This document shows positions 3,884-24,703 of a stretch of 24,709 nt of DNA, piece by piece. Each line of letters opens with the position of its first letter. The stretch's first letter is position 1. The DNA comes from a virus: positions 1 to 24,709 of the IMG/VR virus record IMGVR_UViG_3300025853_000616; one strand, written 5' to 3'. The notes beneath the pieces are model-generated. The model was given only the letters and a program-made list of their open reading frames with translations, did not search any database and was not told the DNA's origin. Position numbers and translations under genes: made by a program.

Positions 3884-4792
3884 GTGGCTGATTTACGTAG
3901 AAGATTTATTGAAGATTATGCAGGCGGTTTGCTGAATGTCGCCAGACAAGAATTGTCCAGCACAGGCGAAGTACTCGCACAAGACGGGTTCGTAGATGAT
4001 ATTACATTGTTTGTTGAAGACGGAAGAGGTGTTAAGAGTGGTTTACGTTTAGGGTCGTCTTTAGTCGAATGTATCGACCCAGTTACGGATACCGGGGTGT
4101 TGAATGTCAGAACTGCGGACCGGACTTATGCGAAAATCAGTGATTTAAAGGCTTTTGCAACCGCAGTTGCTTCTGCACAAGGGGCTTTGACGGATTCAGT
4201 TACCGAGTCCTTTGCCAATCTGGAAGGTGCTTTTGAAACTCTGGAGGCTGATGTCCAGAGTTACAGGTCGAGACTGGAAGATCTTATAGACAATACAACT
4301 CTCGGAGTAGACACTTTGTCTGAGACTGTCTCAGAATTAAACCAAAGGCTTTTAGAGTCAAACGATGTTTCCGGGGTTCTAAGTAACCGCATTGGTGCAA
4401 TAGAAACCACTTTAAGAGAAGTTCAGGTGGTTACAGCAGAACTGACAGCTTTGGGTTCTACGAGTACTCTTGAAAACGTCCAGGCTGGTACTCTTAACCT
4501 GACCTCTCCGAGGTATTATGCTATAACGTCAGTTCGGACAAATGTCCCAGCCTGGGTCACATTGTACAAAACTGCTACGGCCAGGGGTGAAGATGAAAGG
4601 GGGGAGGGAGTTGACCCCGGACTCAACAGCGGTGTGATTTTAGACGTTGTAACTACGGCCAACAATCTGTACCACGAAATCATGCCTTTCGCTTTAGGAA
4701 AGAGTGATGACGATATCTTTTTCGTACGAGCAGTCAATAAGTCAGGGTCTACCGTATCTGTAAGAGTAGAATTGACTTACATTCCTTTATAG
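3884..4792 (+). CDS. Coiled-coil phage tail structural protein
   Basis: A 302-residue protein with a GTG start and only a weak ribosome binding site. The N-terminus (residues 1-85) is a compact region with the RRRFIEDYAGGLLN and VEDGRGVKSGLRLG signatures that I associate with structural proteins of cyanobacterial myoviruses (from memory, not checked). Residues about 88-190 are heptad-like and hydrophobic-periodic (LEGAFETLEADV, LSETVSELNQRLL), a likely trimeric coiled coil. Residues 200-302 form a beta-rich C-terminal domain of a type common at the ends of phage tail proteins (AWVTLYKTATAR, then VRAVNKSGSTVSVRVELTY). There is no membrane segment. It has its own promoter-like motif at 3853. 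Its stop overlaps the convergent minus-strand gene by 16 bases. Probably a trimeric tail or fibre-attachment protein. Confidence 0.82.
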   Translation: MADLRRRFIEDYAGGLLNVARQELSSTGEVLAQDGFVDDITLFVEDGRGVKSGLRLGSSLVECIDPVTDTGVLNVRTADRTYAKISDLKAFATAVASAQGALTDSVTESFANLEGAFETLEADVQSYRSRLEDLIDNTTLGVDTLSETVSELNQRLLESNDVSGVLSNRIGAIETTLREVQVVTAELTALGSTSTLENVQAGTLNLTSPRYYAITSVRTNVPAWVTLYKTATARGEDERGEGVDPGLNSGVILDVVTTANNLYHEIMPFALGKSDDDIFFVRAVNKSGSTVSVRVELTYIPL

Positions 4793-6181: not shown

Positions 6182-6201
6182 TTATTTTGCCAGGTTTAAG
6201 A

Positions 6202-6918
6202 TTAATATTGTCCCTGTGGATAAGCGGAATCAGGAGTTGAAAAAGAGTCTGTGTATCTGCATACCCCGTTAGTTATCCGGAGATCTTCTATATTTCCTGT
6301 AAATAAGTTAACAATTGGAGGGACGTGGTAGTATAATGCCGCCACGAGTAGAGGATTGTTATTAAATTCAACTGATCCTGAAAAGGTTCCAGTAGTTTCT
6401 AAGTTGCCATTAATAAATGTTCTGACTGTAGAACCCGATCTCGTAGCAGCTACATGAGACCAGGTATTAAGAGGGATACTGTTGGTCGAAAGAGACTCTG
6501 TTTCCCACCCGTTGTTAGTAGAATCACTTGTCAAACCAAAATATAATCTCTGTTCGAACGAAATCCTCATGGTAAACGACCCTGCACCGTAAAAGGGTTC
6601 ATTTGCCCTGTTTTTTGCAACAAATTCTCTGTTATCGCCTCCCCCATTATATACCCACATTTCTATGGTAAAATCATTGTCTTTGAAGTCAAAGATTCCT
6701 CTGCTTGGGATAGACAAATAGTTGCTGCCATTAAAGTATATGGACCCTGGACTGTATTTTTTAATGCTCGTATCTACAATAGGGTTGTTGTTGAGGATAA
6801 TCTGGTTATCCGCTCTGCTATCATCAACAATGTTTACTCCGTCTGTTCTAAGCAAAAGGGATACATTGCTCAGATATGGGTCTCCTTTGACGTAGGATGA
6901 GGTGATTTGAAATCCCAT
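6202..6918 (-). CDS. LamG/concanavalin-like lectin adhesin, tandem paralogue 1
   Basis: A 238-residue protein closely similar along its whole length to the next gene (more than half of residues identical by eye). It has the same start (MGFQ), the shared GDPYLSNVSLLL segment, FVAKNRANE, WSHVAATRSGSTVR and YYHVPP motifs, and a matching C-terminus. The fold is the LamG/concanavalin jelly roll, a likely carbohydrate- or surface-binding module. Differences cluster in loop-like stretches, as expected if the copies bind different receptors. It starts 4 bases after the stop of the 98-residue gene (TAAcaccATG), so translation is probably coupled. Adhesin role inferred from family and context. Confidence 0.88.
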   Translation of the reverse strand: MGFQITSSYVKGDPYLSNVSLLLRTDGVNIVDDSRADNQIILNNNPIVDTSIKKYSPGSIYFNGSNYLSIPSRGIFDFKDNDFTIEMWVYNGGGDNREFVAKNRANEPFYGAGSFTMRISFEQRLYFGLTSDSTNNGWETESLSTNSIPLNTWSHVAATRSGSTVRTFINGNLETTGTFSGSVEFNNNPLLVAALYYHVPPIVNLFTGNIEDLRITNGVCRYTDSFSTPDSAYPQGQY

Positions 6919-6922
6919 GGTG

Positions 6923-7219
6923 TTAAGATTTGGCTACGGTAAGAAGATCGCCTTCGGCGTTGTAAGTAAGAGATACGGTGGCTACTGTCGAACCGGAACT
7001 CTTGTAGACGATAGTGGTTACTCGACCGGCCGTATAGGTCAGCTCGACTGAGTCGTGAGCAGGGATACCCAGGCCGGATATGATGATAGGAAGGGCAGAC
7101 AGGGAGGGTGATGTTACGTTTCCACTGGCATCGGCAATCTGAATGACTTGGAATGTTTTTCCTCCGGCTACATTGATAGCCTCGTCATTTACTTGGCCGG
7201 GGTTATCGTAATATGCCAT
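6923..7219 (-). CDS. Small beta-rich phage tail protein
   Basis: A 98-residue protein. It has a short N-terminal segment (MAYYDNPGQVNDE), then beta-strands, and a C-terminal part with the pattern HDSVELTYTAGRVTTIVYK and LTYNAEGDLLTV. I recognise this pattern from many short phage proteins found beside tail fibres, but it has no assigned function. There is no signal peptide and no clear ribosome binding site. It is the first gene of the third minus-strand unit, 32 bases after the start of a GTTGAAAGC motif, and is followed closely by the two LamG-like genes. It may be a small adaptor or decoration of the adhesins. Confidence 0.78.
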   Translation of the reverse strand: MAYYDNPGQVNDEAINVAGGKTFQVIQIADASGNVTSPSLSALPIIISGLGIPAHDSVELTYTAGRVTTIVYKSSGSTVATVSLTYNAEGDLLTVAKS

Positions 7220-7236
7220 GGGCGTGTTAACTTGTC

Positions 7237-7251
7237 TAAATAGCTTTCAAC
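7237..7251 (-). promoter_or_regulatory. GTTGAAAGC-N4-TA promoter-like motif (unit 3)
   Basis: On the minus strand the motif reads GTTGAAAGC, TATT, TA. It lies 2 bases beyond the TAG stop of the 7254-7895 gene and starts 32 bases before the ATG at 7219. Promoter role inferred from recurrence at unit boundaries. Confidence 0.6.
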
Positions 7252-7253
7252 AA

Positions 7254-7895
7254 CTATAGAGTAATGCGCCTAAAGGCACGAACTGATAAATAACCTGCAT
7301 TAGTTCCATTAAGATTATAACCTCCACTTTGAAAATATGCTGCCCATATGGGATAAGAATTACTCTCTTGGCTAGAAGTCCAGTACCCCTCAGCCTTAAA
7401 GGACTCTGAACCGCCCAGAATAAACTCTGGTACATAGGTTCTAGGTGGATCTAGACGAACATAATTGGAATACCTTCTTGGTACAGAGTATGGGTTAACA
7501 CCTTGACCAGAATCGAAGCCAAATGTGGGTTTTAAGTTAATATACACAGACAGCATCTCATAAAGAGAAGGCAAGTACCAGTCCGTAAAGCCACCAATGC
7601 TAAGGTTTACACAAAACTGGGCGGCTGGGTGACTAGAAATTCCTGCGTCCACCATTGCTAGTGTGTTAGACACACCGTCAATAAGGCTTTTTGTGTTGGG
7701 AGTTTGAGTATCTGAGGTTTTCCAGGATACAGGAGATGACAATTCCCCGGTTGCTTTAGGGGATACGATGAGGGCGTGGGTAGGTATACTATTCGCAGTC
7801 CAGCTAATGAATCCCCCTACAAACCCTCCTCCATAGGGGGTTCCAATTGGGACTCCGTCTAGACTTTTAATCCCTGGTGTGATAGTCCAACTCAT
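7254..7895 (-). CDS. DUF1566 / C-type-lectin-fold adhesin
   Basis: A 213-residue protein. The C-terminal half has the hallmarks of the DUF1566 (Lcl C-terminal) family with a formylglycine-enzyme/C-type-lectin fold: GGFTDWYLPSLYEM at ~101-114, GYWTSSQ at ~170-176, an Ala-rich strand with AAYFQSG at ~185-191, and VRAFRRI at ~205-211. This fold is used for receptor binding and, in some phages, is the target of diversity-generating retroelements, whose variable region lies at just this C-terminal place. No reverse transcriptase is present in the window. Its ATG overlaps the stop of the glycine-rich gene (ATGA). It ends the second minus-strand unit. Likely a receptor-binding tip protein. Confidence 0.85.
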   Translation of the reverse strand: MSWTITPGIKSLDGVPIGTPYGGGFVGGFISWTANSIPTHALIVSPKATGELSSPVSWKTSDTQTPNTKSLIDGVSNTLAMVDAGISSHPAAQFCVNLSIGGFTDWYLPSLYEMLSVYINLKPTFGFDSGQGVNPYSVPRRYSNYVRLDPPRTYVPEFILGGSESFKAEGYWTSSQESNSYPIWAAYFQSGGYNLNGTNAGYLSVRAFRRITL

Positions 7896-8707
7896 ATCGC
7901 ATACCTCACAATAACAATTCCAGAACCACCGGCTCCTCCACGGAGATTATTATTTCTGCCGCCTGAGCCGCCGCCTCCGGTATTGGGTGAGCCATCGTTT
8001 CCTATCGAAGGATTTGCAGTAGGACCTGAAGCTCCTCCCCCCAGTCCCCCTGCACTAAAAGCATTTCCTCCTCCACCTCCGTAGTAGGTGGGTGTGCCAG
8101 TTATTGAAAATTCTCTTCCATTGATATTGTGGACAGTCGAGGTTCCTCCTGCACCGCCTCCACGGCCTCCAGCATAAATTGCAATAGAGTTTTGGCCGGG
8201 GGAGCCATAACCAATTGCTCCTCCAGAATTTCCCTGTAACGCTGCTCCCCCGTTATATATGCCAGTACCTCCGGCACCTCCACCAGAACCTCCTGATGCC
8301 CCGGAATAGTATCCCCCGCCTCCACCACCTCTCGCAATAGAGTCAAATGCAGAGCTATTACCCCCATTCGTGCCACTGCTGGTGTCACGGCCAATGCCAC
8401 CCCCACCAATAACTACGGGATATGATCCTTTTAACAAAGGTTTTCCACTATGGTACAGTACACCTCCAGCACCACCTCCAGAACCACCTCCATAACCAGC
8501 CCCTCCGCCACCGCCGCCAGCGACTACAAGGTATTCAAAGGTTCCTTCACTCAGTACGTTAAAACTACTAGACCCTACAGTTGTAAACATGTGAATTCTA
8601 TAGACTATATCTTCCACTTTAATAATGTATGACGTATCTCCACCCTGAGCCCATGCACCTGACTGTTTACGGAGAATTAGACGTCCGGGGGTGTAAATAG
8701 GGCTCAT
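7892..8707 (-). CDS. Glycine-rich adhesin (polyglycine tip protein)
   Basis: A 271-residue protein. After an N-terminal ~60 residues, probably a mounting domain (LILRKQSGAWAQGG, then YRIHMFTTVG), the chain becomes a series of poly-Gly blocks from residue ~60 to the end. It closes with GGSGIVIVRY, a common terminus of glycine-rich phage and bacterial surface proteins. Phage tip adhesins such as T-even gp38 use stacked polyglycine-II helices with exposed loops that decide host range; this protein plausibly works the same way, though it is not obviously homologous. Both ends overlap neighbours by ATGA, so it is translationally coupled within the second minus-strand unit. Confidence 0.83.
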   Translation of the reverse strand: MSPIYTPGRLILRKQSGAWAQGGDTSYIIKVEDIVYRIHMFTTVGSSSFNVLSEGTFEYLVVAGGGGGGAGYGGGSGGGAGGVLYHSGKPLLKGSYPVVIGGGGIGRDTSSGTNGGNSSAFDSIARGGGGGGYYSGASGGSGGGAGGTGIYNGGAALQGNSGGAIGYGSPGQNSIAIYAGGRGGGAGGTSTVHNINGREFSITGTPTYYGGGGGNAFSAGGLGGGASGPTANPSIGNDGSPNTGGGGSGGRNNNLRGGAGGSGIVIVRYAI

Positions 8708-9498
8708 GGCAGAGGTATTAATATTTTATAGGGGTGGTTAGAAGGTAAATTTTCAGTTAACCCTAGTTTGTGGGCTAGATAGCCCTCTAGCTTTTGGCGA
8801 TCACCATCTAGTAAAACTCCTCTAGTGACAATAATTTCTGATGTGACAAATTTGCCAAAACCGATAGCTTCTGGTCTGCGCCAAGCACCGATCGTAAATT
8901 TGTCAATGTCTATGTCATTTGAGTTAAGAGACCCACTGGCGTAGAGAGAGCCGTTTACGGTCATCGTAAAAAACGTACCTGTAAAGACTAAAGAAATGAT
9001 TTGATTTCCCCCCCACACTGGTGTGTTTCCCTCTAAAGTATAGCTATTAGCATCACCTGGTGATCTCCTATACGTACGGAGGTAACCATTAGGGTTTACC
9101 TGAACGTAATGCCCCGTAAAAGTCAAGTTACTGCCAAAAGTAACTAGCATAGAGAGCTGATTGGTTGCACAATTAACAGCCATAACCGCTGACCAGGGAG
9201 AATCTTTTCCATCAGCAATAGCTCCGAGACTATCGCAGGTTAGAAAATTAGAAACCCCGTCAAAACTTATTCCAGGGTTCCCGTTAAACGAGGTGGTATT
9301 GTAAGTTGGACGTGCTGTAGTGCTGGCAATAGCTACTCTTGAGTTCTCACTTTTGTCTCTCCACTCGCTGACAAGTCCACTGCTTTCTGTGATAGTAGAA
9401 CTATCCGAAGCATCTAACCACAGAGATGTATTAAGAACCATGTTAGGGTTCCAAATATCTCCGCTCCAGGTATAACCAGGTCTCCAGATTAGTGTCAT
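8704..9498 (-). CDS. LamG-like lectin-domain adhesin
   Basis: A 264-residue protein. It has a LamG/concanavalin-like core marked by LWLDASDSSTI (~27-37), VSEWRDKS, PGISFDGVSNFL and a central strand set with FFTMTVNGSLYASG. The C-terminal tail DGDRQKLEGYLAHKLGL is typical of bacterial and phage proteins of this type. The N-terminus (LIWRPGYTWSGD) resembles the short N-terminal segments of the following two genes, which may dock to a common fibre. It is distinct from the two tandem LamG genes. It starts 24 bases after the 9523-9951 gene and overlaps the glycine-rich gene by ATGA. Probably carbohydrate-binding. Confidence 0.85.
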   Translation of the reverse strand: MTLIWRPGYTWSGDIWNPNMVLNTSLWLDASDSSTITESSGLVSEWRDKSENSRVAIASTTARPTYNTTSFNGNPGISFDGVSNFLTCDSLGAIADGKDSPWSAVMAVNCATNQLSMLVTFGSNLTFTGHYVQVNPNGYLRTYRRSPGDANSYTLEGNTPVWGGNQIISLVFTGTFFTMTVNGSLYASGSLNSNDIDIDKFTIGAWRRPEAIGFGKFVTSEIIVTRGVLLDGDRQKLEGYLAHKLGLTENLPSNHPYKILIPLP

Positions 9499-11412: not shown

Positions 11413-14400
11413 GGTTGTACAGCGTAAGCGGCGATGCAATCGGAATTATTTGTCCCGAAGAAAGTCAAGGAAAGTATCGCCGATTTACCCGCTGCGATAC
11501 TGGCGGGTTTTTCACTTACAAATACCCAGTCTGCTGGGAATGTGAGATTGCGAGATGTTGAATCAGTAATCAACCTGATAACTACTTGACGCCCAGCAGC
11601 TTGACCTGAGGAGGTAAGTGTAAGGTCTCCGGTTAGATTTATAGTACGATATTGACCATGTAGTGAAGAAAGATCTAGATTTACTGTTGACGAATATGTA
11701 ATAGATGAGAAAGAGGTAGCTGGAGCCAGTCCACTCTGAGTAGTACTGGCGATATTACCTGTAATAGCTCCACTACTACTGACTCTAAACCTGCTAACTC
11801 CGTTGAATTGGAGGTCAAGTAAATTGCCGTTAAAACTACTCAGGGAGTTGACCCCCAGCCCAGTTCCATTCGTATTCCATGCACTAGAACTAGCACCACT
11901 GGGTTCGATCAGAACCTGGGGTTTAGTCGTCGTCGCAGTCCCCCCAGAAGACCAAGTTCCGGTTAAACGGAGTGGGGGATTTGAAAAATCCCCAGCAGTA
12001 CTGATACTGAGACGGGTGGAGATTGTAATGTTTCCGGTTGAGTCTACAACACTACCATTTACACCTGCATACGAGCCGGCAGAATTAAACACAAGGTTTC
12101 CACTTGACCCTGCTACGAGACCAACAGTACCCGTCGCATCGGGGAACGAGATTACCCGATCTTGAGTCGGTGTTACCATCTGCAACGTTGTTGCAAATGT
12201 TCCACCGTCGTCCAGGGTAATGTCACCGCCAACGTCCAGATTGTTGTTGACGTTGACCGGGGCGGAGCCTGAAGCGGTCAGGTTGAGGGGAACGTCGTCG
12301 GCACCCGTACCGGACGTTTCAGCGGCAAGCGTAACGGCAGTGCTGGTGCTGGATAACGCAGCGCGGACGTAGTTACTGGCGTCGGTGTAGGTGCCGTAGC
12401 AGCGGAAGGTTTGGGCGTTGGTGCCGTTGCGTTGGGCGACTCTACCCGTTGAATCCAAGAAAAACGCAGAACTAATGCCGGAGTTTGAATCTGACGCAGA
12501 TGCAGACCAACCAATCCCGTGATCACTTTGAACTCTAATAGTACTGGTGTTTATTGTAAGAATTCTTTGAGTGTTAATAGATACATTAAAACCACTAAAA
12601 GGAGCTTCTATTACAGAGCATGCTCCACCTGTGTTATTGTAAGACTCGCCTATTTGGTTTACATACAGCGTCGAGATTCTGCCAATGCCAGAGCTGTTTA
12701 CGCTGAACTTTGATGTACCATTCACCTGCAGATCCAGCAGGTTTCCGGAGAAGCCGGAGGGCGCATTAACACCAAGTCCCGTACCATTCGTACCCCAAGA
12801 CTCACTTGCCGTCCCCTCAGGTTCGATCAGAACATGCGGCTTAGTCGTCGTAGAACTACCACCACTGAACCAGCTTCCGCTAAACAACTGGGCCGGACTA
12901 GATCCAGTGGTGCTATTGTAGCTATTAGTTACTCTACCAGAGATACTGATAAGGTCTTCATCTAAAGAGATTAATCTGGTTCCAGAAAAAGCGCCATTAT
13001 TGTTATAAATAAGCTGACCGTTAATGCCTGAGACAAGAGCGATAGTTCCAGTAGCATTTGGGAAAGAGATGATATGGTTTTCGGTGGCAGGTACCATCTG
13101 CAACGAGGTACTGAACTCCTCGTTTCCGTCGAACCTGATTCCTCCGCTGACCCCTAACTCCTTGGTGGTGTCGTCCCAGGTCAGATCGGCAGAGCCGGAG
13201 AGATCACCATCTTTATTAAATTGAATCTGAGTATTATCTCCTCCAGGCTCGACATTGCCAGGGACCCACTGTCCACTGGCTTCGTTATAAGTAAGAGCTT
13301 GACGGTCTACAGGGGGATTTGATGAAATGTCGACGTCCGTATTATCACTTAGAGAGACAGACCCGCTCTCGGCAGACGTAATACGACCGCTCGAATCAAC
13401 GGTTACAGTGGCGAGGTTGTAAGTATTAGCCTCTACACCGGTTTCCGGGAAATCAAAGGAAAAAGAACCGGTCTCTGAGTCGTAGCTCAGGCCATTCGTA
13501 CCAGAAACAGATAAGGAATTGCGAGCACGGGACTCAGTAAAATATAGGTTAGTCAGACCCTCTGGTACTTCATCCGTACTAGGCGGCCTGGAGCTGATTT
13601 CTACGTAAGCTGAACCACCCCAACGATAAGTTTTGCCATTATCCAGAGAAACATAGATCTTTCCTGTTTCACCAGTCTCCGGTAACGAGTCAAAGTCCGC
13701 GTATTCCAGAACATCATCGACATAGCTAGGTAAAAGCGAAGAGGGTACAAGTCCGCTTCCGTCTAGCCTGGCAAGACCGTCAGGCTCGTTGATACTGAGT
13801 TCGATATTCCTTGACCGGATCCAGTATCCCTGGTTGTCCTGCTCGCTAGTATCGGTAATCGTGAGAGGAAGATCTCCGGTAACCGAAATATCAGTCAGAA
13901 ATTTATTGTCCGTATACGTTTTTACAGCAAACTGTGAAGGTACCGTATTACTATCCGGACCGCCAATCGATGCGATAAGAGATGTGTTATTGCTGACTTC
14001 TCTAAGCTGTTCGCCGACAGTAGAAATACCACCATTTCGGCTAAACGGACCGATGAAGTTCAGACCGGAAAGATTAAACTGATCAGTGTTAATTGTAACG
14101 CTACCGCTCGTACCATCTACACTGAACTGGCTACCGACCTTGAAGTCACCCCTTTCATTTGTGTTACTGCTGTAGACACGACCGTTGTTGGTCTCGACAA
14201 TGGCGTTTCCTTCAATCGGTACGCCCCCGTTCCAGGGAAGCGCATCGTAGTTCATACCACTGCCGACAAACTCGAAGGTATGTGACGGAGCGCTGATCTG
14301 AGACCGGTTTCTGAAGTCTAGAGTCTGTCCGAGATGGATCGGTTCCTTTAGGCCACCGTTCAAGCCGGAGAAGAATACGACACGATATCCCGCACGACTC

Positions 14401-16292
14401 GGGTCGGTATTATCGACCTCGTTACCGTTTACATCGATAGGAATACTGCTAGTAATGACATAGGCGATGGCCGAGGAGATAAAACGAATACCATCGATCG
14501 TGACATCTCCGTCTCCCAAGGGGAGCTGAGAGGAGGTCTTGATTGTTACGAGGCCGGTAGTTTTATTATAATCCGCGCCAATAATCTTGTAGTCCGTACC
14601 GTCGATAGTGGCCGTACCACTCCCCACATACTCGTAGTCCGGACCATCCGGATCGAAGGAATCTTCGATGTAAGTGAAAGTAAACCCGTCTATTCTAGTG
14701 TAGCTAAAGGTTTTCTCTTCTGGTAATCCGGTAGACGAGTTCCTGGGAAATACGATTTCTGGGAACATCAACTGCCCAGCATTCGGCCTCGAAGCTGAGT
14801 TACAAATGAAGCTTAGGCCGGAGAGGGAAACAGAATCACCAACTTGGGGCACATAGCCACTCGCTGTAAGTATGGCTACACCGCTAGTTCCATCGTAGGT
14901 CGCACTAGTAATTGGGTACTCATTTTCCCCGAGAATTACCTTGCCTCCTCCGACATACTCATGAAGTATATCAGTGGTCCCGAGAGTCACATAGAACTTG
15001 CCCTCGTCGACATTGAAGACAGAGATGGGATTGCCAGAACTACCAAGACTGCCCTGGACGGGGTACTTGATTTGTCTCCCTAGTCTGTTAGGACCAAGGT
15101 CAATGACATCAATTTCTGTTACGCCTTGGCGCAGGAACTGATAGGTTCCATCAGAAACACCCGTTAGATCAAGAGCTAAACCGTTTTTCGAAATACTGAG
15201 TTTAAACGTATCGGCTGTCAGCCCCTCCTCTACTACGTAGTAGATCGTATTATCCTCTAGACCAGTAGGTAAAACCCCTTGGGTCGCTTTGACAGTAACC
15301 TGGTCGTTAACGACCAGCTCGTGATTTACACAGGAAAAAGTATCTGTGTCCAGATCAACTGTAAAGGTCTTCTCTAGCCTAATTGCCCCGAATACAGAGG
15401 TCCGCGCTGACCCGGTAAACAGAGGGGAACGGCTGTAACCGTCAGCCATCAGGCCGTAAAGTCCGAAGTCGGTTGTTCCTCCACCGCTCAGGTTTACCTG
15501 GCCTCCCGTCTCCGTACGGACATGGTATGTGCAGAAAGTCCCGAAGAAGCTGACAAGCTGGGCGTAACCGTCATTCAGAACCAGACAACCCGGACCGCCA
15601 AGGTTAACTTGGGTATACGAGTCGACAACCATCGACCGAATCGGGCTGTTAATCGAGCACTTGCTACCATCAACTCGAATACCTCCACCCGTATTACCTG
15701 TACTGTTCGATCCGGCCAGACCTCTATCGTCCTCGGCCGTAATACTCGTACAGTTTTGAATATACGGAGACTTAAAGATATGGGCACCGAGACTGATAGC
15801 TCCGCGATGTCTGTTATCTGCTAGCTCGTCGAAATCAATCGCCCACGCTTGCCTGGTTTCATCGGCTTGGTGTCCGGCGAATGAAAGACCCCAGCACCAG
15901 AAACCGGAGTCAACCTTAAAGATGTCGTTGAATTCCTGACCGGGGGCAGGCTGAACGATCGTACTGCGGAGGCCACTGCCAAAGATGGTTACGTCGTATT
16001 TCCACCGAATTGGTAGGATATCCTCGATGTAGGTTCCGGGAGAAACAAATACAACATCCCCAGGCTCAGCCTGAAGCGAAGCGGCCCTCAGCGTACGTAG
16101 AGGTTCAGCAATACTGGTTCCATCATTCTCATCGTCACCGTCCAGGGACACATAGATCTTTCTGGAATCCCTAAATTGCTCCAGCAAAGAAGCAGTCGTC
16201 TCACCTATGCCGTCCGATGTGACAAACTGGTCGACATTATACAACTTCGTAGACGTTTCAATCTGGTCTACTTGTAATTTTCCAAAAGTCAT
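11409..16292 (-). CDS. Long tail fibre protein with beta-helix and repeated C-terminal modules
   Basis: A 1627-residue fibre. The ATG at 16292 is chosen because of a GGAGG site about 8 bases upstream, a TGATG overlap with the previous gene, and the MTFGKLQVDQIETST start typical of such fibres. Residues ~39-300 form a pectate-lyase-like beta-helix (KIYVSLDGDDENDGTS, GDVVFVSPGTYIED, GSGLRSTIVQP, then GGGIRVDGS and MVVDSYTQVNLGG). Residues 444-500 and 553-608 are two copies of a small beta-domain. A ~306-residue unit repeats at ~1059-1204 and ~1365-1508. The C-terminal cap (LTFPADWVFVSEKPASIAAGKSAIL) is a common fibre tip. It is likely trimeric. The beta-helix may bind or cut polysaccharide, but I see no certain catalytic residues. 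Confidence 0.93.
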   Translation of the reverse strand: MTFGKLQVDQIETSTKLYNVDQFVTSDGIGETTASLLEQFRDSRKIYVSLDGDDENDGTSIAEPLRTLRAASLQAEPGDVVFVSPGTYIEDILPIRWKYDVTIFGSGLRSTIVQPAPGQEFNDIFKVDSGFWCWGLSFAGHQADETRQAWAIDFDELADNRHRGAISLGAHIFKSPYIQNCTSITAEDDRGLAGSNSTGNTGGGIRVDGSKCSINSPIRSMVVDSYTQVNLGGPGCLVLNDGYAQLVSFFGTFCTYHVRTETGGQVNLSGGGTTDFGLYGLMADGYSRSPLFTGSARTSVFGAIRLEKTFTVDLDTDTFSCVNHELVVNDQVTVKATQGVLPTGLEDNTIYYVVEEGLTADTFKLSISKNGLALDLTGVSDGTYQFLRQGVTEIDVIDLGPNRLGRQIKYPVQGSLGSSGNPISVFNVDEGKFYVTLGTTDILHEYVGGGKVILGENEYPITSATYDGTSGVAILTASGYVPQVGDSVSLSGLSFICNSASRPNAGQLMFPEIVFPRNSSTGLPEEKTFSYTRIDGFTFTYIEDSFDPDGPDYEYVGSGTATIDGTDYKIIGADYNKTTGLVTIKTSSQLPLGDGDVTIDGIRFISSAIAYVITSSIPIDVNGNEVDNTDPSRAGYRVVFFSGLNGGLKEPIHLGQTLDFRNRSQISAPSHTFEFVGSGMNYDALPWNGGVPIEGNAIVETNNGRVYSSNTNERGDFKVGSQFSVDGTSGSVTINTDQFNLSGLNFIGPFSRNGGISTVGEQLREVSNNTSLIASIGGPDSNTVPSQFAVKTYTDNKFLTDISVTGDLPLTITDTSEQDNQGYWIRSRNIELSINEPDGLARLDGSGLVPSSLLPSYVDDVLEYADFDSLPETGETGKIYVSLDNGKTYRWGGSAYVEISSRPPSTDEVPEGLTNLYFTESRARNSLSVSGTNGLSYDSETGSFSFDFPETGVEANTYNLATVTVDSSGRITSAESGSVSLSDNTDVDISSNPPVDRQALTYNEASGQWVPGNVEPGGDNTQIQFNKDGDLSGSADLTWDDTTKELGVSGGIRFDGNEEFSTSLQMVPATENHIISFPNATGTIALVSGINGQLIYNNNGAFSGTRLISLDEDLISISGRVTNSYNSTTGSSPAQLFSGSWFSGGSSTTTKPHVLIEPEGTASESWGTNGTGLGVNAPSGFSGNLLDLQVNGTSKFSVNSSGIGRISTLYVNQIGESYNNTGGACSVIEAPFSGFNVSINTQRILTINTSTIRVQSDHGIGWSASASDSNSGISSAFFLDSTGRVAQRNGTNAQTFRCYGTYTDASNYVRAALSSTSTAVTLAAETSGTGADDVPLNLTASGSAPVNVNNNLDVGGDITLDDGGTFATTLQMVTPTQDRVISFPDATGTVGLVAGSSGNLVFNSAGSYAGVNGSVVDSTGNITISTRLSISTAGDFSNPPLRLTGTWSSGGTATTTKPQVLIEPSGASSSAWNTNGTGLGVNSLSSFNGNLLDLQFNGVSRFRVSSSGAITGNIASTTQSGLAPATSFSSITYSSTVNLDLSSLHGQYRTINLTGDLTLTSSGQAAGRQVVIRLITDSTSRNLTFPADWVFVSEKPASIAAGKSAILSLTFFGTNNSDCIAAYAVQP
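11769..12200 (-). repeat. C-terminal fibre repeat, copy 2
   Basis: Codes for fibre residues ~1365-1508, with TTLQMVTPTQDRVISFPDAT and GTATTTKPQVLIEPSG...LGVN...GNLLDLQFNG. It matches copy 1 after a shift of 306 residues and ends just before the C-terminal cap. Confidence 0.8.
12681..13118 (-). repeat. C-terminal fibre repeat, copy 1
   Basis: Codes for fibre residues ~1059-1204. Two blocks recur in copy 2 with the same spacing: TSLQMVPATENHIISFPNAT and GSSTTTKPHVLIEPEG...LGVN...GNLLDLQVNG. The period between copies is 306 residues. Confidence 0.8.
14469..14636 (-). repeat. Internal fibre beta-domain, copy B
   Basis: Codes for fibre residues ~553-608 (EYVGSGTATIDGTDYKIIGA, KTTGLVTIKT, GIRFISSAI). 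It is a diverged copy of the 14793-14963 domain, 109 residues further along the chain. Confidence 0.72.
14793..14963 (-). repeat. Internal fibre beta-domain, copy A
   Basis: Codes for fibre residues ~444-500, with EYVGGGKVILGENEYPITSA, the TYDGTSGVAILT strand and GLSFICNSA. It matches copy B position by position in the main hydrophobic and Gly residues. Confidence 0.72.
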
Positions 16293-18345: not shown

Positions 18346-21210
18346 TTGGCAACTTCGATTACAGTGAATGCCGCTTCGCTAAATAGACCGGGTGTATTTG
18401 TCGCCCAGTCTGTCACAGGCGGACTTCCACAGCCCATCGCTAGCCATGCTGTAGGTTATTTGTTCGGTACTACTCCTGCCGATGAATACTATGGTGAAGG
18501 AAGCGAGGGCATTTACTCAGAATTTATTCCTTATGTCCCCACCCAAGTTGCATCGGTAGAAGACTACCTGCAAAAAGTCGGTGGAACTATTCCTAATACC
18601 AGTGTCGGAGCACTAACTACCTACGACGCCATTAAGGGATATTTCGACAACGTCGGCGTAAACGGTATTCTTTACTTTACCCGGGTTACCCCTACCCCGG
18701 AAACCTACATCGACCTGAGTGCGAGTGTAGCAGGAACCGGTTACAACGCATTTGCGTTAAAGGTTAACGGTAGATACTTCGGTACCCCGATTAATGTCCC
18801 TGACGGAGACGGTGATGAAATCAGAGTTATCACCACTACCGGGATCGATGCTATTGATAACGCAAGAGATCTTTTCTCCTACCTCAGCAGTGTCGACTCT
18901 GACGGATTCTCAGATTTTTACAAAGTCGAGCAGACTGCGACTGAAGCTATTCAAGGTAAATTCCGTATCTTCTCCAAGGATAGCGCAGAACTCCCCCAAG
19001 TAGATCGATTCGTAGCGTTTAACTTTAGCGACACGGGATACGCATCGCCTGAAAATCTTAACACCAGCAGTGTCGTAAAACTCTACACCTCGGTGAAAGA
19101 GATTAACTTCCGTTGTGATAGCAGATACGTGAGCAACAGAGAACGTGTTCTGTATGTGGATGGTTCGGCTGTTAGCCTATTTATTGCTGATAAGAATGCT
19201 GATACTCCTGGCACTTACGACCCGTCCGCTGACCAGTCTGCCATCTTAAAGGCATATTTAACTACTTCGACTGATCAAAAGGGAGCCGGAGCATATGCTT
19301 CTGTGGCCGATATCCCGAATGATAAGGTAATCGCTATCTCCAAAGACTTTAGCTCGGGAGTGGGAGCTGGTGATAAATGGCCCGATGCTGATGCGGCTTA
19401 CTGGCAGTATGACGCCGAGGCAACTCCGGGAACTATCTTTGAAAAACTGGTCGATGGCGTATCTGGTGATCCGATCGTTCCTACCGGAGATGTAAGCAAC
19501 AATGGCCTGAGCCGCTCGGGATACCTGCCTAACTCGGTACAGGTATTCTATGTATCGATTGCCGGAGAGAACCGTGCAATTATCGTTAACGGTGCGACTC
19601 CTGACGAACTTGCTGAGAACCTTCGCAACGAGCTGATTTCCATCCTAGAGGAAAAAGAGCTTGCTCAGTATTACGATATCGAATTCGTACCCTCAGGTTC
19701 TAATTACGCTGGCACCGCTTACGCCCCCAATAACGGTCATGCCGTAACTGACAACCTTCTTTCTACCCACGGCTCACCGTTTACCCGCCCTGACCTAGAA
19801 GACATTACTCTGGCCGGCACGGTTACTGTTAGCGCCGGAGTTCTTTCCGGTACGAATACGCTATTCCAGCAAGAGCTTGGAGTTGGCGACAAAATCGTGA
19901 TCAACGGTACCAGATTCGAGGTTCTCACAATCACTAGTAACACCAGCGCTACTGTAGATGTTACTGATGTGACCATCTCTACCCAGTCTGTTGCCAGACT
20001 GGATAAATCTCTAGCCAACGGTTTCGAGTCATTCGACTACGTCCTGAAGATCCGTATTACGTCCAAAAACGGTGTTGTTAGCCCGGTAATCCCTGGAACT
20101 AACCGTCAAGGTCTGATCGATAGCAACGTAGTCAAGCTTACTTCCGAAGAGGAAGACCTCGGTTACACTGGGTACAAACTGACTTCTTCTGCTAAAGCTC
20201 AGGATTTTACCTATGCTATTGAAAAAGGCATGGGTGATGGCTACCAGTCTCCCGGATTCCTGATGGCCCCTGAGGCTTATCGGGTTCTTTCTTACTCCGT
20301 AGATTCTGATATTGCCTCTAAGAGCGAAGCAATTAACGAGAGACTGAAAGTTACTCAGACCCTAGTCGCTGCCGCTGAGGGTCAATTTGGTGTGACGGAG
20401 GGTATTACCAGCACACAGCATGTCGCAATGATCGATTGCGGCGGAGACATTGAAAATCTTTCTCAGGCACAAGAGGAACTAAATGCTGTTAAAAGAGTAG
20501 TCGGATCTTTCTACGGTCACGCTGCTTTCTACGCACCTTACGTAAAGAATCTGGATGACAGATTTGTCCCTGCCAGCTCGTTTGTGGCTGGTATTGCCTG
20601 TAGCCGGTTTATTAACGAGGGTTTCCAACAGCCCCCTGCCGGTTCCCGTTATCCCCTGCGCGGTGTAACTGGTCTGAAATTCCAAATCTCTGCTCAACAG
20701 CAAGAGGTCACTTACGCTCTGGGCTTAAACCCAATCAGATCTCTGCCTAATCGGGGCATTGTTGTCTGGGGAGCCCGGACCCTGTCCAGTAGCCCCCTGT
20801 TCCGATTTGTAAGCACACGGGTGATTCTAAACGTCCTTACGGATGTCATGAACCGTAGCTTTGACGATATTCTATTCGAATCTATCGATTCGGCAAGCAC
20901 AGTTTACAGCCGAGTGACTTCAATCGCTACTCAGGTTCTGAACCAATTCTTCCGTCAAGGAGCCCTATTTGGTAACCGTCCAGAACAGGCTTATCTGGTT
21001 ATCTGCGGAGATAGTAACAACAGCCCGGCTCTTCTTGAGCAGGGTACTGTGAGAATGGATGCGTATGTAGCTACCTCTCCTACTCTAGAGCGTCTAGCAA
21101 TTACGATTGTTCGAACTCCTGCCGGACAGGTTTCGCTCCTTAGCGATAGCTTTAGCCGTAACGAAGAACGCTTTACCGCATTCCTCGAAGCTACCAACCT
21201 TAACGTTTGA
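18346..21210 (+). CDS. Contractile tail sheath protein, unusually large
   Basis: A 954-residue protein starting at TTG 18346, with GGAG at 18334-18337 as ribosome binding site. The N-terminus (ITVNAASLNRPGVFVAQSVTG) and the C-terminal third (SPGFLMAPEAYR at ~635-646, FYAPYVKNLDDRFVPASSFVAG, NRGIVVWGARTLSSSP at ~802-817, FRQGALFGNRPEQAYLVICG) are clear tail-sheath signatures. It polymerises around the tail tube and contracts to drive infection. T4 gp18 has 659 residues, so this one carries about 300 extra residues, mostly between ~120 and ~620. One insert (488-545) is a beta-domain also found in the decoration protein. No tail-tube gene follows it directly, which is unusual. Confidence 0.95.
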   Translation: MATSITVNAASLNRPGVFVAQSVTGGLPQPIASHAVGYLFGTTPADEYYGEGSEGIYSEFIPYVPTQVASVEDYLQKVGGTIPNTSVGALTTYDAIKGYFDNVGVNGILYFTRVTPTPETYIDLSASVAGTGYNAFALKVNGRYFGTPINVPDGDGDEIRVITTTGIDAIDNARDLFSYLSSVDSDGFSDFYKVEQTATEAIQGKFRIFSKDSAELPQVDRFVAFNFSDTGYASPENLNTSSVVKLYTSVKEINFRCDSRYVSNRERVLYVDGSAVSLFIADKNADTPGTYDPSADQSAILKAYLTTSTDQKGAGAYASVADIPNDKVIAISKDFSSGVGAGDKWPDADAAYWQYDAEATPGTIFEKLVDGVSGDPIVPTGDVSNNGLSRSGYLPNSVQVFYVSIAGENRAIIVNGATPDELAENLRNELISILEEKELAQYYDIEFVPSGSNYAGTAYAPNNGHAVTDNLLSTHGSPFTRPDLEDITLAGTVTVSAGVLSGTNTLFQQELGVGDKIVINGTRFEVLTITSNTSATVDVTDVTISTQSVARLDKSLANGFESFDYVLKIRITSKNGVVSPVIPGTNRQGLIDSNVVKLTSEEEDLGYTGYKLTSSAKAQDFTYAIEKGMGDGYQSPGFLMAPEAYRVLSYSVDSDIASKSEAINERLKVTQTLVAAAEGQFGVTEGITSTQHVAMIDCGGDIENLSQAQEELNAVKRVVGSFYGHAAFYAPYVKNLDDRFVPASSFVAGIACSRFINEGFQQPPAGSRYPLRGVTGLKFQISAQQQEVTYALGLNPIRSLPNRGIVVWGARTLSSSPLFRFVSTRVILNVLTDVMNRSFDDILFESIDSASTVYSRVTSIATQVLNQFFRQGALFGNRPEQAYLVICGDSNNSPALLEQGTVRMDAYVATSPTLERLAITIVRTPAGQVSLLSDSFSRNEERFTAFLEATNLNV
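19807..19980 (+). repeat. Shared beta-domain inserted in the sheath
   Basis: Codes for sheath residues 488-545 (GTVTVSAGVLSGTNTLF, ELGVGDKIVINGTRFEVLTI, SNTSATV). It matches the domain at 23216-23395 in the decoration protein in strand pattern and in the ELxVGDxIxI core. Confidence 0.75.
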
Positions 21211-21225
21211 CGTTGAAAGATTGAT

Positions 21226-22815
21226 ATGGCACGGAGACTTCGCAAAAACCTGGAAGAAGTTCTAAACGCTGATTCCCCTCTGACCGAGCAACAACCCAAG
21301 AGAACCGTATACATCGAATTATTTCGTTCCGGTCCTCAAATTAGTTCGAGCGGCCAGAAGATGGTTTTTGCGGACGAAGATCTTGATCAGGTGGTGACTA
21401 GCTATAACCCAAATAAGCATGAGGCACCCCTGATCATCGGTCATGACCAGGACGACGGAACCCCAGCCCTGGGTTGGGTACGTGAAGTGTGGCGAAAAGG
21501 CAAATCTCTTTGGGGGAAAGTTGAACTAACTCCCAAGGCAGAACGCCTAATTCGCGACGGAGTATTCAAGAAGGTCAGTAGCTCGTTCTACTTGCCCGAT
21601 GCGGATACTAACCCGACACCCGGCCAACTGGCATTGCGCCATCTCGGCCTTGTGTCTATACCTGCGGTAAAAGGCCTTACGGCTTTTTCCGAGACACCCC
21701 CCGAAGGCTCGATAACTATTACTCCAGCGGAGTCTTCTATTTCATTTCAGGAAACTTTACCAACTATGGCTAAGAGAAAAACCGAAGCCCCCGTTCAAGA
21801 GACTAAAGTTGTCGACCATGCCGATGGGCGGGGCATGACTATTAATGTAAACATCAATGGCATGAAAGCCACTGATGAAGAGGGACAAGATGTCCAGGAA
21901 ACTGGTGCTGCTGCTCCGTATGACATGGAATACGGAGATGACATGGCTCCCGATCCCATGATGAGCCCTGACCCTATGGCCCAGGAGGGAATGCAATCCC
22001 TTCAATCCGCCTCGATGGTCGAAGGACCTGATGGTGAAGAGATGGGCGATGAAGACGGTGGAGAAGCTCCTCCGGTTGATGAAGAAGGTGCAGGTCCGGA
22101 CGGGATGGAAGGCGAAGATATGCCACCTGAAGAGGTAGGGATGGAGCCCGAAGCCGAGGATATGTCCGGTGATGACGATGAGCAAGTCGCTGCCGATCTC
22201 GCTTCTCAGTACACCGAAGATCAACTCATCATGGCCCTTTATCAACTTGCTCAGGGGTCTCAGGAGATGGGTGAAGGCATGATGCCTGGCTATTCCGAGG
22301 CTGACGCCTCGGAAGAAGAGGTAGTTGAAGCCGAAGCGACTGATTTCTCGGAGACGCAGTCCCCGGATCCTCTGGCCGCCAAGGTTGCCGAACTCGAAGA
22401 AGAGCTTGCCTCCCAAAGACGCCTCATGCGTCAAAAGGAGATCACAGATTTCTGTGAAAAGCTGTACGAGGGAGGTAAACTTACAGAACAAATTGTCCCC
22501 ATTTCCGATCTCACCCGGTTCATGGAGACTCTTAATCCAAAGAATAACGTGAACTTCAGCGAAGCGGGTAAGGCTACCCAATTCGAATTTATGAAGGGCA
22601 TGTTGGAGAAGCTGCCCGCGATGGTTAGCTTCAATGAGGTGGCTACCCCTTCTACCGCACCCAAGAAGCCAAAGGCCCCTAAGCCTAACGCAGACGGATA
22701 CGTCTACGATCAACGTAGCGCAGAAGTACATGCTAAAGCCGTGGAATACTCCGAGGCCAATGGTACGGACTATATGTCTGCTTTGAAGCTTGTTCTCGAA
22801 GAAGACGAAGACTGA
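21226..22815 (+). CDS. Mu gpI-like prohead protease fused to scaffold
   Basis: A 529-residue protein. Residues ~25-155 resemble the Mu-like prohead protease family (gpI): RTVYIELFRSGPQIS, then APLIIGHD with a possible catalytic His73, ALGWVREVWRKGKSLWGKVELTP, FKKVSSSFY with possible catalytic Ser118-120, and LRHLGLVSIPAVKGL. Residues ~214-385 are very rich in Asp, Glu, Met, Gly and Pro, and ~381-420 form a coiled coil (AAKVAELEEELASQRRLM), as expected of a scaffold. The C-terminus is Lys/Pro-rich. It should process and shape the prohead, then be cut away. An internal ATG at 21766 could make the scaffold alone. It starts 15 bases after the sheath stop and precedes decoration and capsid genes. 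Confidence 0.88.
   Translation: MARRLRKNLEEVLNADSPLTEQQPKRTVYIELFRSGPQISSSGQKMVFADEDLDQVVTSYNPNKHEAPLIIGHDQDDGTPALGWVREVWRKGKSLWGKVELTPKAERLIRDGVFKKVSSSFYLPDADTNPTPGQLALRHLGLVSIPAVKGLTAFSETPPEGSITITPAESSISFQETLPTMAKRKTEAPVQETKVVDHADGRGMTINVNINGMKATDEEGQDVQETGAAAPYDMEYGDDMAPDPMMSPDPMAQEGMQSLQSASMVEGPDGEEMGDEDGGEAPPVDEEGAGPDGMEGEDMPPEEVGMEPEAEDMSGDDDEQVAADLASQYTEDQLIMALYQLAQGSQEMGEGMMPGYSEADASEEEVVEAEATDFSETQSPDPLAAKVAELEEELASQRRLMRQKEITDFCEKLYEGGKLTEQIVPISDLTRFMETLNPKNNVNFSEAGKATQFEFMKGMLEKLPAMVSFNEVATPSTAPKKPKAPKPNADGYVYDQRSAEVHAKAVEYSEANGTDYMSALKLVLEEDED
21766..22815 (+). CDS. Possible internally started scaffold protein
   Basis: In-frame ATG at codon 181 of the protease-scaffold gene, preceded by AGGAAA at 21749-21754, about 11 bases upstream. 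It would give a 349-residue scaffold (MAKRKTEAPVQETK...) without the protease. Mu (gpZ inside I) and lambda (Nu3 inside C) make scaffold from nested starts in the same way. Inferred from position and site quality only. Confidence 0.45.
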   Translation: MAKRKTEAPVQETKVVDHADGRGMTINVNINGMKATDEEGQDVQETGAAAPYDMEYGDDMAPDPMMSPDPMAQEGMQSLQSASMVEGPDGEEMGDEDGGEAPPVDEEGAGPDGMEGEDMPPEEVGMEPEAEDMSGDDDEQVAADLASQYTEDQLIMALYQLAQGSQEMGEGMMPGYSEADASEEEVVEAEATDFSETQSPDPLAAKVAELEEELASQRRLMRQKEITDFCEKLYEGGKLTEQIVPISDLTRFMETLNPKNNVNFSEAGKATQFEFMKGMLEKLPAMVSFNEVATPSTAPKKPKAPKPNADGYVYDQRSAEVHAKAVEYSEANGTDYMSALKLVLEEDED

Positions 22816-22833
22816 GTCAAATCCTTGTAACAA

Positions 22834-22853
22834 CGGGGTAGCTTGCTACCCCG
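22834..22853 (+). other. Hairpin with CUUG tetraloop after protease-scaffold gene
   Basis: CGGGGTAG, CTTG, CTACCCCG: a perfect 8-bp stem with a CUUG tetraloop, 18 bases after the stop of the protease-scaffold gene. No T-run follows, so it is not a typical intrinsic terminator. It may act as an mRNA stabiliser, processing site or attenuator between scaffold and capsid expression. Confidence 0.6.
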
Positions 22854-22864
22854 GCAGAAGGAGA

Positions 22865-22879
22865 GATAACAAGGTTATC
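22865..22879 (+). other. Second small hairpin in the decoration-gene leader
   Basis: GATAAC, AAG, GTTATC: a 6-bp stem with a three-base loop, 11 bases after the CUUG hairpin. Together they give a structured leader in the 172-base gap 22816-22987. No copy of the GTTGAAAGC motif, and no strong ribosome binding site next to the start at 22988, is seen in that gap. Confidence 0.4.
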
Positions 22880-22987
22880 AATTTACCTGTCTGTTCCCGG
22901 TTACATTTAAAGGAAAGACTACACCCCCGAGTTTACAGATGATGCGTCTCTGTACGCTCACCAAACACACTAACGAACATAAACAAA

Positions 22988-23701
22988 ATGGCAACGGATC
23001 CCCGTTACATGTCGTTCGACCACAAGTACGTAGAGACGGTTACCGTAACCGACGCTACCGCACTTGCTAATGGTATCGAACGCTGCCGTTTCGTTAAGCG
23101 AGACGGTTCTTACCCTGTTGCTGGTGGCTATGCCGCCGGCCTCAATGTCTACAAACTCTACGGTCAAGGCGAACTGACCGACAAGGGTTACCAAGTCGAA
23201 GATGCGGCTATGACCGCTCTCTCCGGTACTCTGGCCATCAACACCTCCGGTGTTGTGACCGGTACGACCACCAACTTTGACCCTGAACTCAACGTTGGCG
23301 ACACCATCAAAATCGGTGCGCAACTGTTCCGGGTTATGGCCCGTACCAGCGACACTGCCGCCACCGTTCTGCCCGCCCCCGAGACCGCCATCTCCGGTGC
23401 TACTGCGTATATCTGGCCTGGAACCTATGAGGGTCAGTCGAACCCGAGCACCACTCCGCGTAAGCCTGGTGTGTTCCCGTATCAGTCTCTCTTGAGCATC
23501 GTGACCACTGGTATCGCTATCGCCGAAGTAGACGCAACCTCTACTTTTGCTGTGGACGATGCGGTGTACTCCGATGCGACTGGTAAGGCCTCTAGCACCG
23601 CAGGTGCCGGTCTAATCCTCGGTCGCGCTCTAGACGTCATCGGCACTGCGGGTGCTGGTCAATATATCCGAGTGAAACTCGGTAACGAAGCTGGTTCCTG
23701 A
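22988..23701 (+). CDS. Capsid decoration / cement-type protein
   Basis: A 237-residue protein between the protease-scaffold and the major capsid gene, the usual place for a head decoration protein. The N-terminal (CRFVKRDGSYPVAGGYAAGLNV) and C-terminal parts (GIAIAEVDATSTFAVDDAVY, ATGKASSTAGAGLILGRALD) resemble DUF2190-type cement proteins of Mu-like heads. Residues ~77-136 are an inserted beta-domain that also occurs in the tail sheath. ATG 22988 has no Shine-Dalgarno sequence; the preceding bases are A-rich. It has a 172-base structured leader, and its codons are more GC-biased and regular than in the tail cassette, which fits high expression. Confidence 0.82.
   Translation: MATDPRYMSFDHKYVETVTVTDATALANGIERCRFVKRDGSYPVAGGYAAGLNVYKLYGQGELTDKGYQVEDAAMTALSGTLAINTSGVVTGTTTNFDPELNVGDTIKIGAQLFRVMARTSDTAATVLPAPETAISGATAYIWPGTYEGQSNPSTTPRKPGVFPYQSLLSIVTTGIAIAEVDATSTFAVDDAVYSDATGKASSTAGAGLILGRALDVIGTAGAGQYIRVKLGNEAGS
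23216..23395 (+). repeat. Shared beta-domain inserted in the decoration protein
   Basis: Codes for residues ~77-136 (SGTLAINTSGVVTGTTTNF, ELNVGDTIKIGAQLFRVMA, SDTAATV). It is a diverged copy of the sheath domain at 19807-19980. Confidence 0.75.
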
Positions 23702-23716
23702 GGAGAGTAATTAACT

Positions 23717-24703
23717 ATGATGAATCTAGATCAAGTACGGGTAATTGACCCGATCCTTACGCAAATTGCGCAAGGTTACAAGAATACCGATGGTGTTGCT
23801 ACCTTCTTCGCCCCGGCTGTTTCCATGAACGTCCGGGCAGGTCGTACGCTTACCTTCGGTAAAGAGGCCTTCGCTGCGCAGACCTTCCTGCGTGCGCCTG
23901 GTACTAACATTCAGAAAATTCAGAATGAGTTCGGTACCCGGAGCTTCTCGCTTCGTCAAGAAGCCATTAGCTGGTCTATCGCTGAAGAAGTAGCTGCGGA
24001 AGCTAAGAACGGTGCTGCCGCTATCGACCTTCGCGCATACGCCGCCAAGGATGCCGCTAACAGACTGCAACAGAGTTGGGAAGTCGAAGTCGCCAAGCGT
24101 GTACTCGACGTGACCCAGTACGAGACCGGTAACGTTCTCGATCTGGCCACTTACAACTCCGGTGCCGACCAATTCAATAGCCCGACTTCCGATGTGGAAA
24201 TCCTAATGGACGACCTCAAAGAGCAAGTTCGTAGCCAGATTGGTTGCTATCCGAACAAACTCGTGCTTAGCCCCGATGCGTTTAACGCCCTGAAGCGTAA
24301 CAAGCGTATTCGTGACTTCATGCAGCGTGGTGTGCTGGTGAACGAGAAGACCCTCGCCGAGATCTTCGGTCTCGACGAAATCCGTGTCGCTCGTCGTCTC
24401 AAGCTCGGCGAAGACGGTGTTAGCCTGGAGAACATCTACAACAACGTGGGTCTTCTCTTCTATCACCCCTCCGGTGCTACCGATGGTTTCACCCCCGCCA
24501 TGGATGCTAACTACGGTACTCCGGCATTTGCGTATACCTATACGCTGTCCGGCTATCCTATCTCGACCCCTGAGCGTTTCAACATGGATCGCCGTGTGTT
24601 CGAGGGTGACATCCTTGTCGAGCGTAGCTTCGAGCTGGTCGGCATGGGCGAATCCGGTCGCTGCGGCGCTGGTGCTGTGATTCTGAATCCCGTTGGTGCC
24701 TGA
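23717..24703 (+). CDS. Major capsid protein (Mu/E-type HK97 fold)
   Basis: A 328-residue protein with AGGAG at 23701-23705 as ribosome binding site; two ATGs (23717, 23720) are possible starts. The sequence resembles major capsid proteins of the Mu/E-like type: ISWSIAEEVAAEA (~85-97), the later segment CYPNKLVLSPDAFNALKRNKRIRDFM (in two parts), LAEIFGLDEIRVARRLK, VGLLFYHPS and the beta-rich C-terminus SFELVGMGESGRCGAGAVI. It forms the icosahedral shell after scaffold removal. Codon use is regular and C-ending, consistent with very high expression. It lies 15 bases after the decoration gene, so the two are co-transcribed. The gene ends 6 bases before the window edge. Confidence 0.92.
   Translation: MMNLDQVRVIDPILTQIAQGYKNTDGVATFFAPAVSMNVRAGRTLTFGKEAFAAQTFLRAPGTNIQKIQNEFGTRSFSLRQEAISWSIAEEVAAEAKNGAAAIDLRAYAAKDAANRLQQSWEVEVAKRVLDVTQYETGNVLDLATYNSGADQFNSPTSDVEILMDDLKEQVRSQIGCYPNKLVLSPDAFNALKRNKRIRDFMQRGVLVNEKTLAEIFGLDEIRVARRLKLGEDGVSLENIYNNVGLLFYHPSGATDGFTPAMDANYGTPAFAYTYTLSGYPISTPERFNMDRRVFEGDILVERSFELVGMGESGRCGAGAVILNPVGA

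Follow-up and report, generated by a model that had tools for sequence, protein, structure and literature searches.

The stretch of DNA analysed here, hereafter the window, is the 24,709-base virus fragment IMGVR_UViG_3300025853_000616 from IMG/VR; its tail sheath protein and its head decoration protein share a domain of about 65 residues, predicted to fold as a small beta-barrel. In the phage collection, its closest isolated relatives are the cyanophages S-TIM5, S-TIM54, S-TIM61 and S-TIM66: their sheaths are 46-48% identical to that of the window (47.6% for S-TIM5 over its length), and the gene order sheath, head protease, decoration protein, major capsid protein is common to the window and the S-TIM relatives. 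The features of this region, all on the + strand, are:

18346..21210, +, tail sheath protein, 954 aa (phrog_17610, E 1.5e-249; PF04984, E 6.6e-6)
19801..20004, +, beta-barrel cassette in the sheath, aa 486-553 (borders from empty relatives)
21226..22815, +, head maturation protease, the gene between the two carriers (phrog_976, E 1.3e-68; PF10123, E 4.6e-11)
22988..23701, +, head decoration protein, 237 aa, DUF2190/Phage_cement_2 type, between the protease and the major capsid protein
23207..23425, +, beta-barrel cassette in the decoration protein, aa 74-146 (borders from empty relatives)
23717..24703, +, major capsid protein (phrog_1005, E 3.3e-64)

Regarding the sheath, it has the conserved C-terminal sheath domain and the N-terminal core part of contractile tail sheaths; its profile match to the sheath of cyanophage A-1(L) (8kee, E 5e-53) covers model positions 78-142, 607-641 and 681-919, so that a conserved core (~78-142 and ~607-919) frames an extra region of ~460 residues, not aligned to the A-1(L) core, with the cassette near its end. 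As for the decoration protein, profile, fold and head-gene position all place it in the DUF2190/Phage_cement_2 type, the profile part being marginal (PF09956, Phage_cement_2, E 2e-4, 22.1 bits with a cut-off of 24); in Foldseek its model matched the phi29 gp8.5 base, the TW1 capsid stabiliser, and the phiCD508 and XM1 proteins, with TMt of ~0.7 against DUF2190 models, and its S-TIM5 homologue is annotated as a virion structural protein. Apart from the domain, the two carriers are unrelated, in agreement with the initial annotation.

Homology of the two copies and their wider family

The initial annotation had noticed a shared pattern at sheath residues 488-545 and decoration-protein residues 77-136, and both positions stood, with true borders slightly wider (sheath aa ~486-553, decoration aa ~74-146). 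Used as a tblastn query against the window, the sheath segment retrieved only the decoration segment (E 9.9e-10; 53 residues aligned at 45% identity), and BLASTP of the whole sheath against the whole decoration protein gave E 4e-5. The profiles were reciprocal: that of the sheath copies scored the decoration copy of the window at 56.5 bits (best of 2,000 shuffles 13.4), and that of the decoration copies scored its sheath copy at 41.9 bits (best of 2,000 shuffles 14.2); hhalign of the two families returned a probability of 99.2 and E 3.6e-19. The shuffles rule out a chance likeness of low-complexity sequence rich in Thr, Val, Gly and Ala.

AlphaFold2 gave seven strands in the same order for both inserts: residues 492-496, 499-503, 516-519, 522-531, 534-537, 544-548 and 550-552 in the sheath copy, and 81-84, 89-93, 106-109, 112-121, 124-128, 135-138 and 140-143 in the decoration copy. 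Local pLDDT was about 70-89 within the inserts and below 50 for the flanking stretches in both models.

As for further copies, which the initial annotation had proposed to look for, none was found in the window with a second, more divergent profile, and tblastn with the domain consensus sequence gave no match; the relatives did provide additional carriers. Whole-record scans of the longest contigs of the window's clade detected exactly two copies (sheath and decoration protein), those of sister lineages detected copies in the sheath and in a fibre-like protein of 291-304 aa, and those of S-TIM5 found the sheath pair plus a copy in a 1,413-aa virion protein. In this phage group, four or more kinds of virion protein carry a single homologous and optional barrel module.

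The fibre-like protein has a homologue in the window:

3884..4792, +, fibre-like virion protein, 302 aa, homologue of the barrel-tipped proteins (N-terminal ~180 aa shared with relatives)

These ~180 residues are 50-76% identical across relatives, and the C-terminal tip is the barrel in L166-L171 and other modules in the window clade, L172/L173, S-TIM5 and S-TIM54; over the set compared (window 3884-4792 and L152-L174), the tip is swapped among at least four unrelated modules. The swapping of the fibritin C-terminus (PMC3797505) resembles this arrangement. Elsewhere in the window, positions 5468-9498 (- strand) hold a row of short stand-alone genes, adjacent to the gene of a 1,632-aa fibre. 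Their domains are LamG-type lectins (PF13385, two paralogues), a glycine-rich one (PF21722), one resembling Lcl_C and a further one of virion type, and each gene matches part of much longer fibre or baseplate proteins of other phages. The row looks like a store of separate adhesin tips.

Beyond this phage group, the domain was recognized in a structural protein of S-CAM3, VrlC-type proteins, a Pelagibacter phage structural protein and Leptospira phage fibres; in the Pelagibacter phage HTVC104P (gp74, L145 3680-5491) the carrier is of yet another kind, a structural protein with the domain at residues 107-169 and an additional match to phrog_578 (head closure Hc3). A broader profile reached two solved structures, the F2-pyocin side fibre (PDB 25ve, residues 7-71, E 1.2e-6) and the distal tail protein gp20 (PDB 23gd, residues 4-70, E 1.6e-6), which have in common with the window copies the G-T strand and the TG.GT.F, L..GD.I and T..T motifs; in these two the domain is terminal in a tail-tip protein, whereas in the window it is an internal loop cassette of sheath and decoration protein. 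The same domain, by sequence and fold, is present in phrog_1980, phrog_1591, phrog_2712 and the tail fibres of Rtp/phiKP26/Sd1 type, which differ from the window in that the carrier is a fibre and the domain is usually N-terminal. The match to phrog_1980 is significant over the whole domain (best E 4.3e-9; 22 of 23 domain copies match), and the decoration model matched tail fibres in BFVD over 76-85 columns with an rmsd of ~2-4 Å and a probability of 1.00; the same fold search also returned a 1,392-aa protein and the sheath of S-TIM5. No name for the domain was found in Pfam or NCBIfam, and the domain is, on these profile and fold matches, a member of an existing, apparently unnamed and widespread family of phage fibre domains.

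Empty, single and nested states of the two sites

The comparison of 79 decoration loci and 43 sheath loci placed the domain as an insert in both families and not as part of their conserved core, as first proposed from the window alone. A core position in all relatives was what the initial annotation had named as refuting its idea, which therefore withstood this check. In the decoration protein, the cassette takes ~70 residues in place of a six-residue turn, KGYQVDDGSTLVYEGQLN in empty relatives; it is present in 35 distinct copies and absent from L061-L081, L113, L115, S-TIM5 and S-TIM54 (about 20 contigs besides S-TIM5/S-TIM54). In the sheath, empty relatives read RPELSELDEGATQDDKAAANGF at the site, and the cassette is missing as a clean gap in five rows (L061, L066, L067, L075, L115). 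The flanks are intact around both sites in relatives devoid of the domain, and both sites are clean loop cassettes. Among 43 distinct sheath and decoration pairs, 24 carry the domain in both proteins, 12 in the sheath only, two in the sheath only but nested, five in neither, and none in the decoration protein only.

Because relatives lack it cleanly in both families, the domain is not required for assembly, and to this extent the early suggestion of a role other than assembly holds. An assembly artefact behind the empty states was ruled out, as these occur in several independent contigs and in the isolates S-TIM5 and S-TIM54. Introns, suggested by split sheath matches in L011 and L109, were also discarded: the query matches the decoration copy as well. 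L108 is a frameshifted open reading frame.

S-TIM5 (genus Aurunvirus) has orthologous sheath and decoration carriers in the same gene order; unlike the window, its decoration protein has an empty loop and its sheath a nested double copy. In S-TIM5 and S-TIM54, the sheath barrel holds a second complete copy within it, placed after the second strand (..QGT) and ahead of the T-x-F motif; with the flanks of the inner copy joined, the outer copy of S-TIM5 scored 57.4 instead of 37.6 bits, and that of S-TIM54 53.0 instead of 43.9 bits. A tandem arrangement in S-TIM5 fits less well, leaving the second copy without its first strands. The nested sheaths lie at L117 (S-TIM5) 12001-15414 and L118 (S-TIM54) 6001-9438.

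Origin of the copies and selection on them

In a decoration tree built without the insert, the filled proteins form one clade (39 rows, support 100/96), and two changes, one gain and one loss, explain the whole pattern; in the tree of the domain itself, the 35 distinct decoration copies are monophyletic as well (100/100). These trees show a single gain of the decoration copy, on the branch leading to the window's clade, followed by inheritance. The loss concerns L062, whose decoration protein (667-1269) belongs to the filled clade and has an empty loop, likely by precise loss of the cassette.

The sheath tree depicts a different situation: the domain is widespread, and it is missing in five rows of one seven-row clade, in which L070 and L071 carry it, a pattern that would require three losses, or a loss and a re-gain. 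The copy of L070/L071 groups with the fibre-tip copies (98/89), a single sheath clade not being rejected (p-AU 0.43), and it may have been re-acquired from another gene of the same phage group.

Regarding the relation between the two sites, ongoing gene conversion was rejected, as identity within the same genome is 0.420 versus 0.416 between genomes (permutation p 0.20). The sheath copies of L090, L093 and L101 have the longer loops of the decoration copies, share the motif ARTxDTAATVxPxP with them and look more alike than the other copies, a likeness that no genome-wide conversion signal accompanies. A tree that holds the sheath copies of the window clade together with the decoration copies was not rejected (p-AU 0.71), and copying from sheath to decoration protein within one genome is possible on this topology. 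The initial annotation had spoken of a recent spread within one genome; with a single decoration gain, a clade at 100/100 and no exchange between sites, this claim was not borne out in that form, and "recent" is too strong because the gain predates the divergence of the sheaths to about 71-80% identity in the clade.

Both copies are under purifying selection, with dN/dS of about 0.12, a rough value taken from mean distances with synonymous sites near saturation. This value, and the long retention across the whole window clade, stand against a neutral or selfish spread in which recombination places a tolerated, well-folding module in permissive loops with little function; such an account, which would find some comfort in the self-nesting of S-TIM5/S-TIM54 and in the domain losses of L062 and several sheath lineages, is very improbable.

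The degree of conservation differs between the two sites: in the decoration protein, the copy and the remaining residues are equally conserved (mean identity 82.7% vs 80.3%), and the sheath copy is less conserved than the remaining sheath (66.8% vs 78.5%). The former is what would be expected if the barrel contacted neighbouring capsid or sheath subunits laterally and cemented the particle, its optional nature reflecting a tuning of virion stability with no adhesin involved; decoration proteins of the DUF2190 type are indeed capsid stabilisers (TW1 match), and an extra sheath domain of phage 812 touches a neighbouring subunit (cited in PMC9230969). The lower conservation of the sheath copy speaks against this cementing role, as does the fact that the neighbours of the module differ widely (sheath, decoration protein, fibre tip, baseplate-type protein), making a common lateral interface unlikely; overall, we regard lateral stabilisation as a less likely but serious alternative.

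Probable surface display and possible function

The explanation that we favour is that of an accessory cassette on the virion exterior. Phages would put an independently folding beta-barrel of ~65 residues into surface loops of unrelated virion proteins; in the S-TIM5-like cyanophage lineage, the sheath copy would be the older and widespread one, and the loop of the decoration protein would have received a second copy a single time, in the common ancestor of the window clade, so that the virion would bear the barrel many times over, on head and tail. Many weakly sticky copies could then hold the particle, with low affinity and in a non-essential way, to the cyanobacterial envelope or to other surfaces, a role already suggested for phage Ig-like domains. 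Taken as a whole, weak multivalent adhesion included, this explanation has in our view about an even chance of being correct.

Its parts are not equally firm. The homology, the cassette behaviour, the single gain in the decoration protein and the purifying selection are established by the comparisons above; outer display and adhesion go beyond them. In a survey of sheaths, extra domains lie away from the tube, have Ig-like folds in most cases, and were suggested to serve adhesion or stabilisation (PMC9230969); by analogy, the region of the sheath copy would face away from the tube, and we infer a display on the outer surface by flexible linkers. The carriers are virion proteins, and the fibre copy of the sister lineages sits where other lineages carry other tip modules, both in support of an exterior cassette. 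Adhesion, the likeliest role, is less certain than the outer display.

Some observations weigh against the adhesive cassette. Outside the insert, the sheath was modelled with low confidence (mean pLDDT 58), and the model gives no direction for the domain, and there is no sign of diversification within it, a weak point with synonymous sites near saturation. Typical sugar-binding modules are rich in aromatic residues; the domain is acidic and has few of them (Trp is absent from the sheath copies, and Tyr averages 0.3 per copy), and a classical sugar-binding module is therefore unlikely. In addition, the domain is N-terminal in the F2-pyocin side fibre and in several tail fibres, usually the end attached to the particle, a placement that fits docking better than adhesion.

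According to this docking alternative, the barrel would be a protein-protein attachment module for fibres, whiskers or soluble tip proteins on head and tail. Its nearest solved relatives are the N-terminal domains of 25ve (7-71) and 23gd (4-70), the PHROG tail fibres 1980 and 1591 bear it at residues ~7-72, and the several short stand-alone adhesin-like proteins of the window could need a dock. However, no partner co-varied with the cassettes in the data examined, and no common binding surface is apparent across copies that are ~35% identical, since only G8, G19 and F24 are invariant; a docking platform is a less likely explanation, though still a serious one.

Returning to the exterior adhesive cassette, its boldest version holds that the whole particle, capsid and contractile tail, is coated with one non-Ig adhesive barrel, copied from sheath to decoration protein in its own genome and hopping among virion proteins and into itself; we consider this version doubtful.

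The phage Ig-like domains are the closest parallel: they spread horizontally, are inserted in or appended to head and tail proteins, and weak adhesion has been proposed for them (PMC9230969, PMC10385173), T4 Hoc being the head counterpart of the extra sheath domains (PMC10385173). The window domain is likewise optional and promiscuous across unrelated virion proteins, as are T4 Hoc and the extra sheath domains. Unlike the Ig-like beta-sandwich, Foldseek on the decoration model returned small barrels, and the Pfam search gave one chance-level match to TIG (E 0.095, 1 of 23 copies); with no profile beyond chance, an Ig-like fold was discarded, and the domain is analogous to the phage Ig-like domains and outside them. 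The open-access literature searched contained no description of a loop cassette shared by a sheath and a head decoration protein and occurring naturally in empty, single and nested form.

In conclusion, both loops are proven insertion sites, of use for peptide display on capsid and sheath, and as these fixed sites occur naturally empty, singly filled or nested, the purpose of optional head and tail domains can be tested directly. Within one phage group, a small barrel known chiefly from tail fibres is found again in the sheath, the head decoration protein, the tip of a fibre and a large virion protein, and promiscuous phage surface cassettes would extend beyond Ig-like folds.

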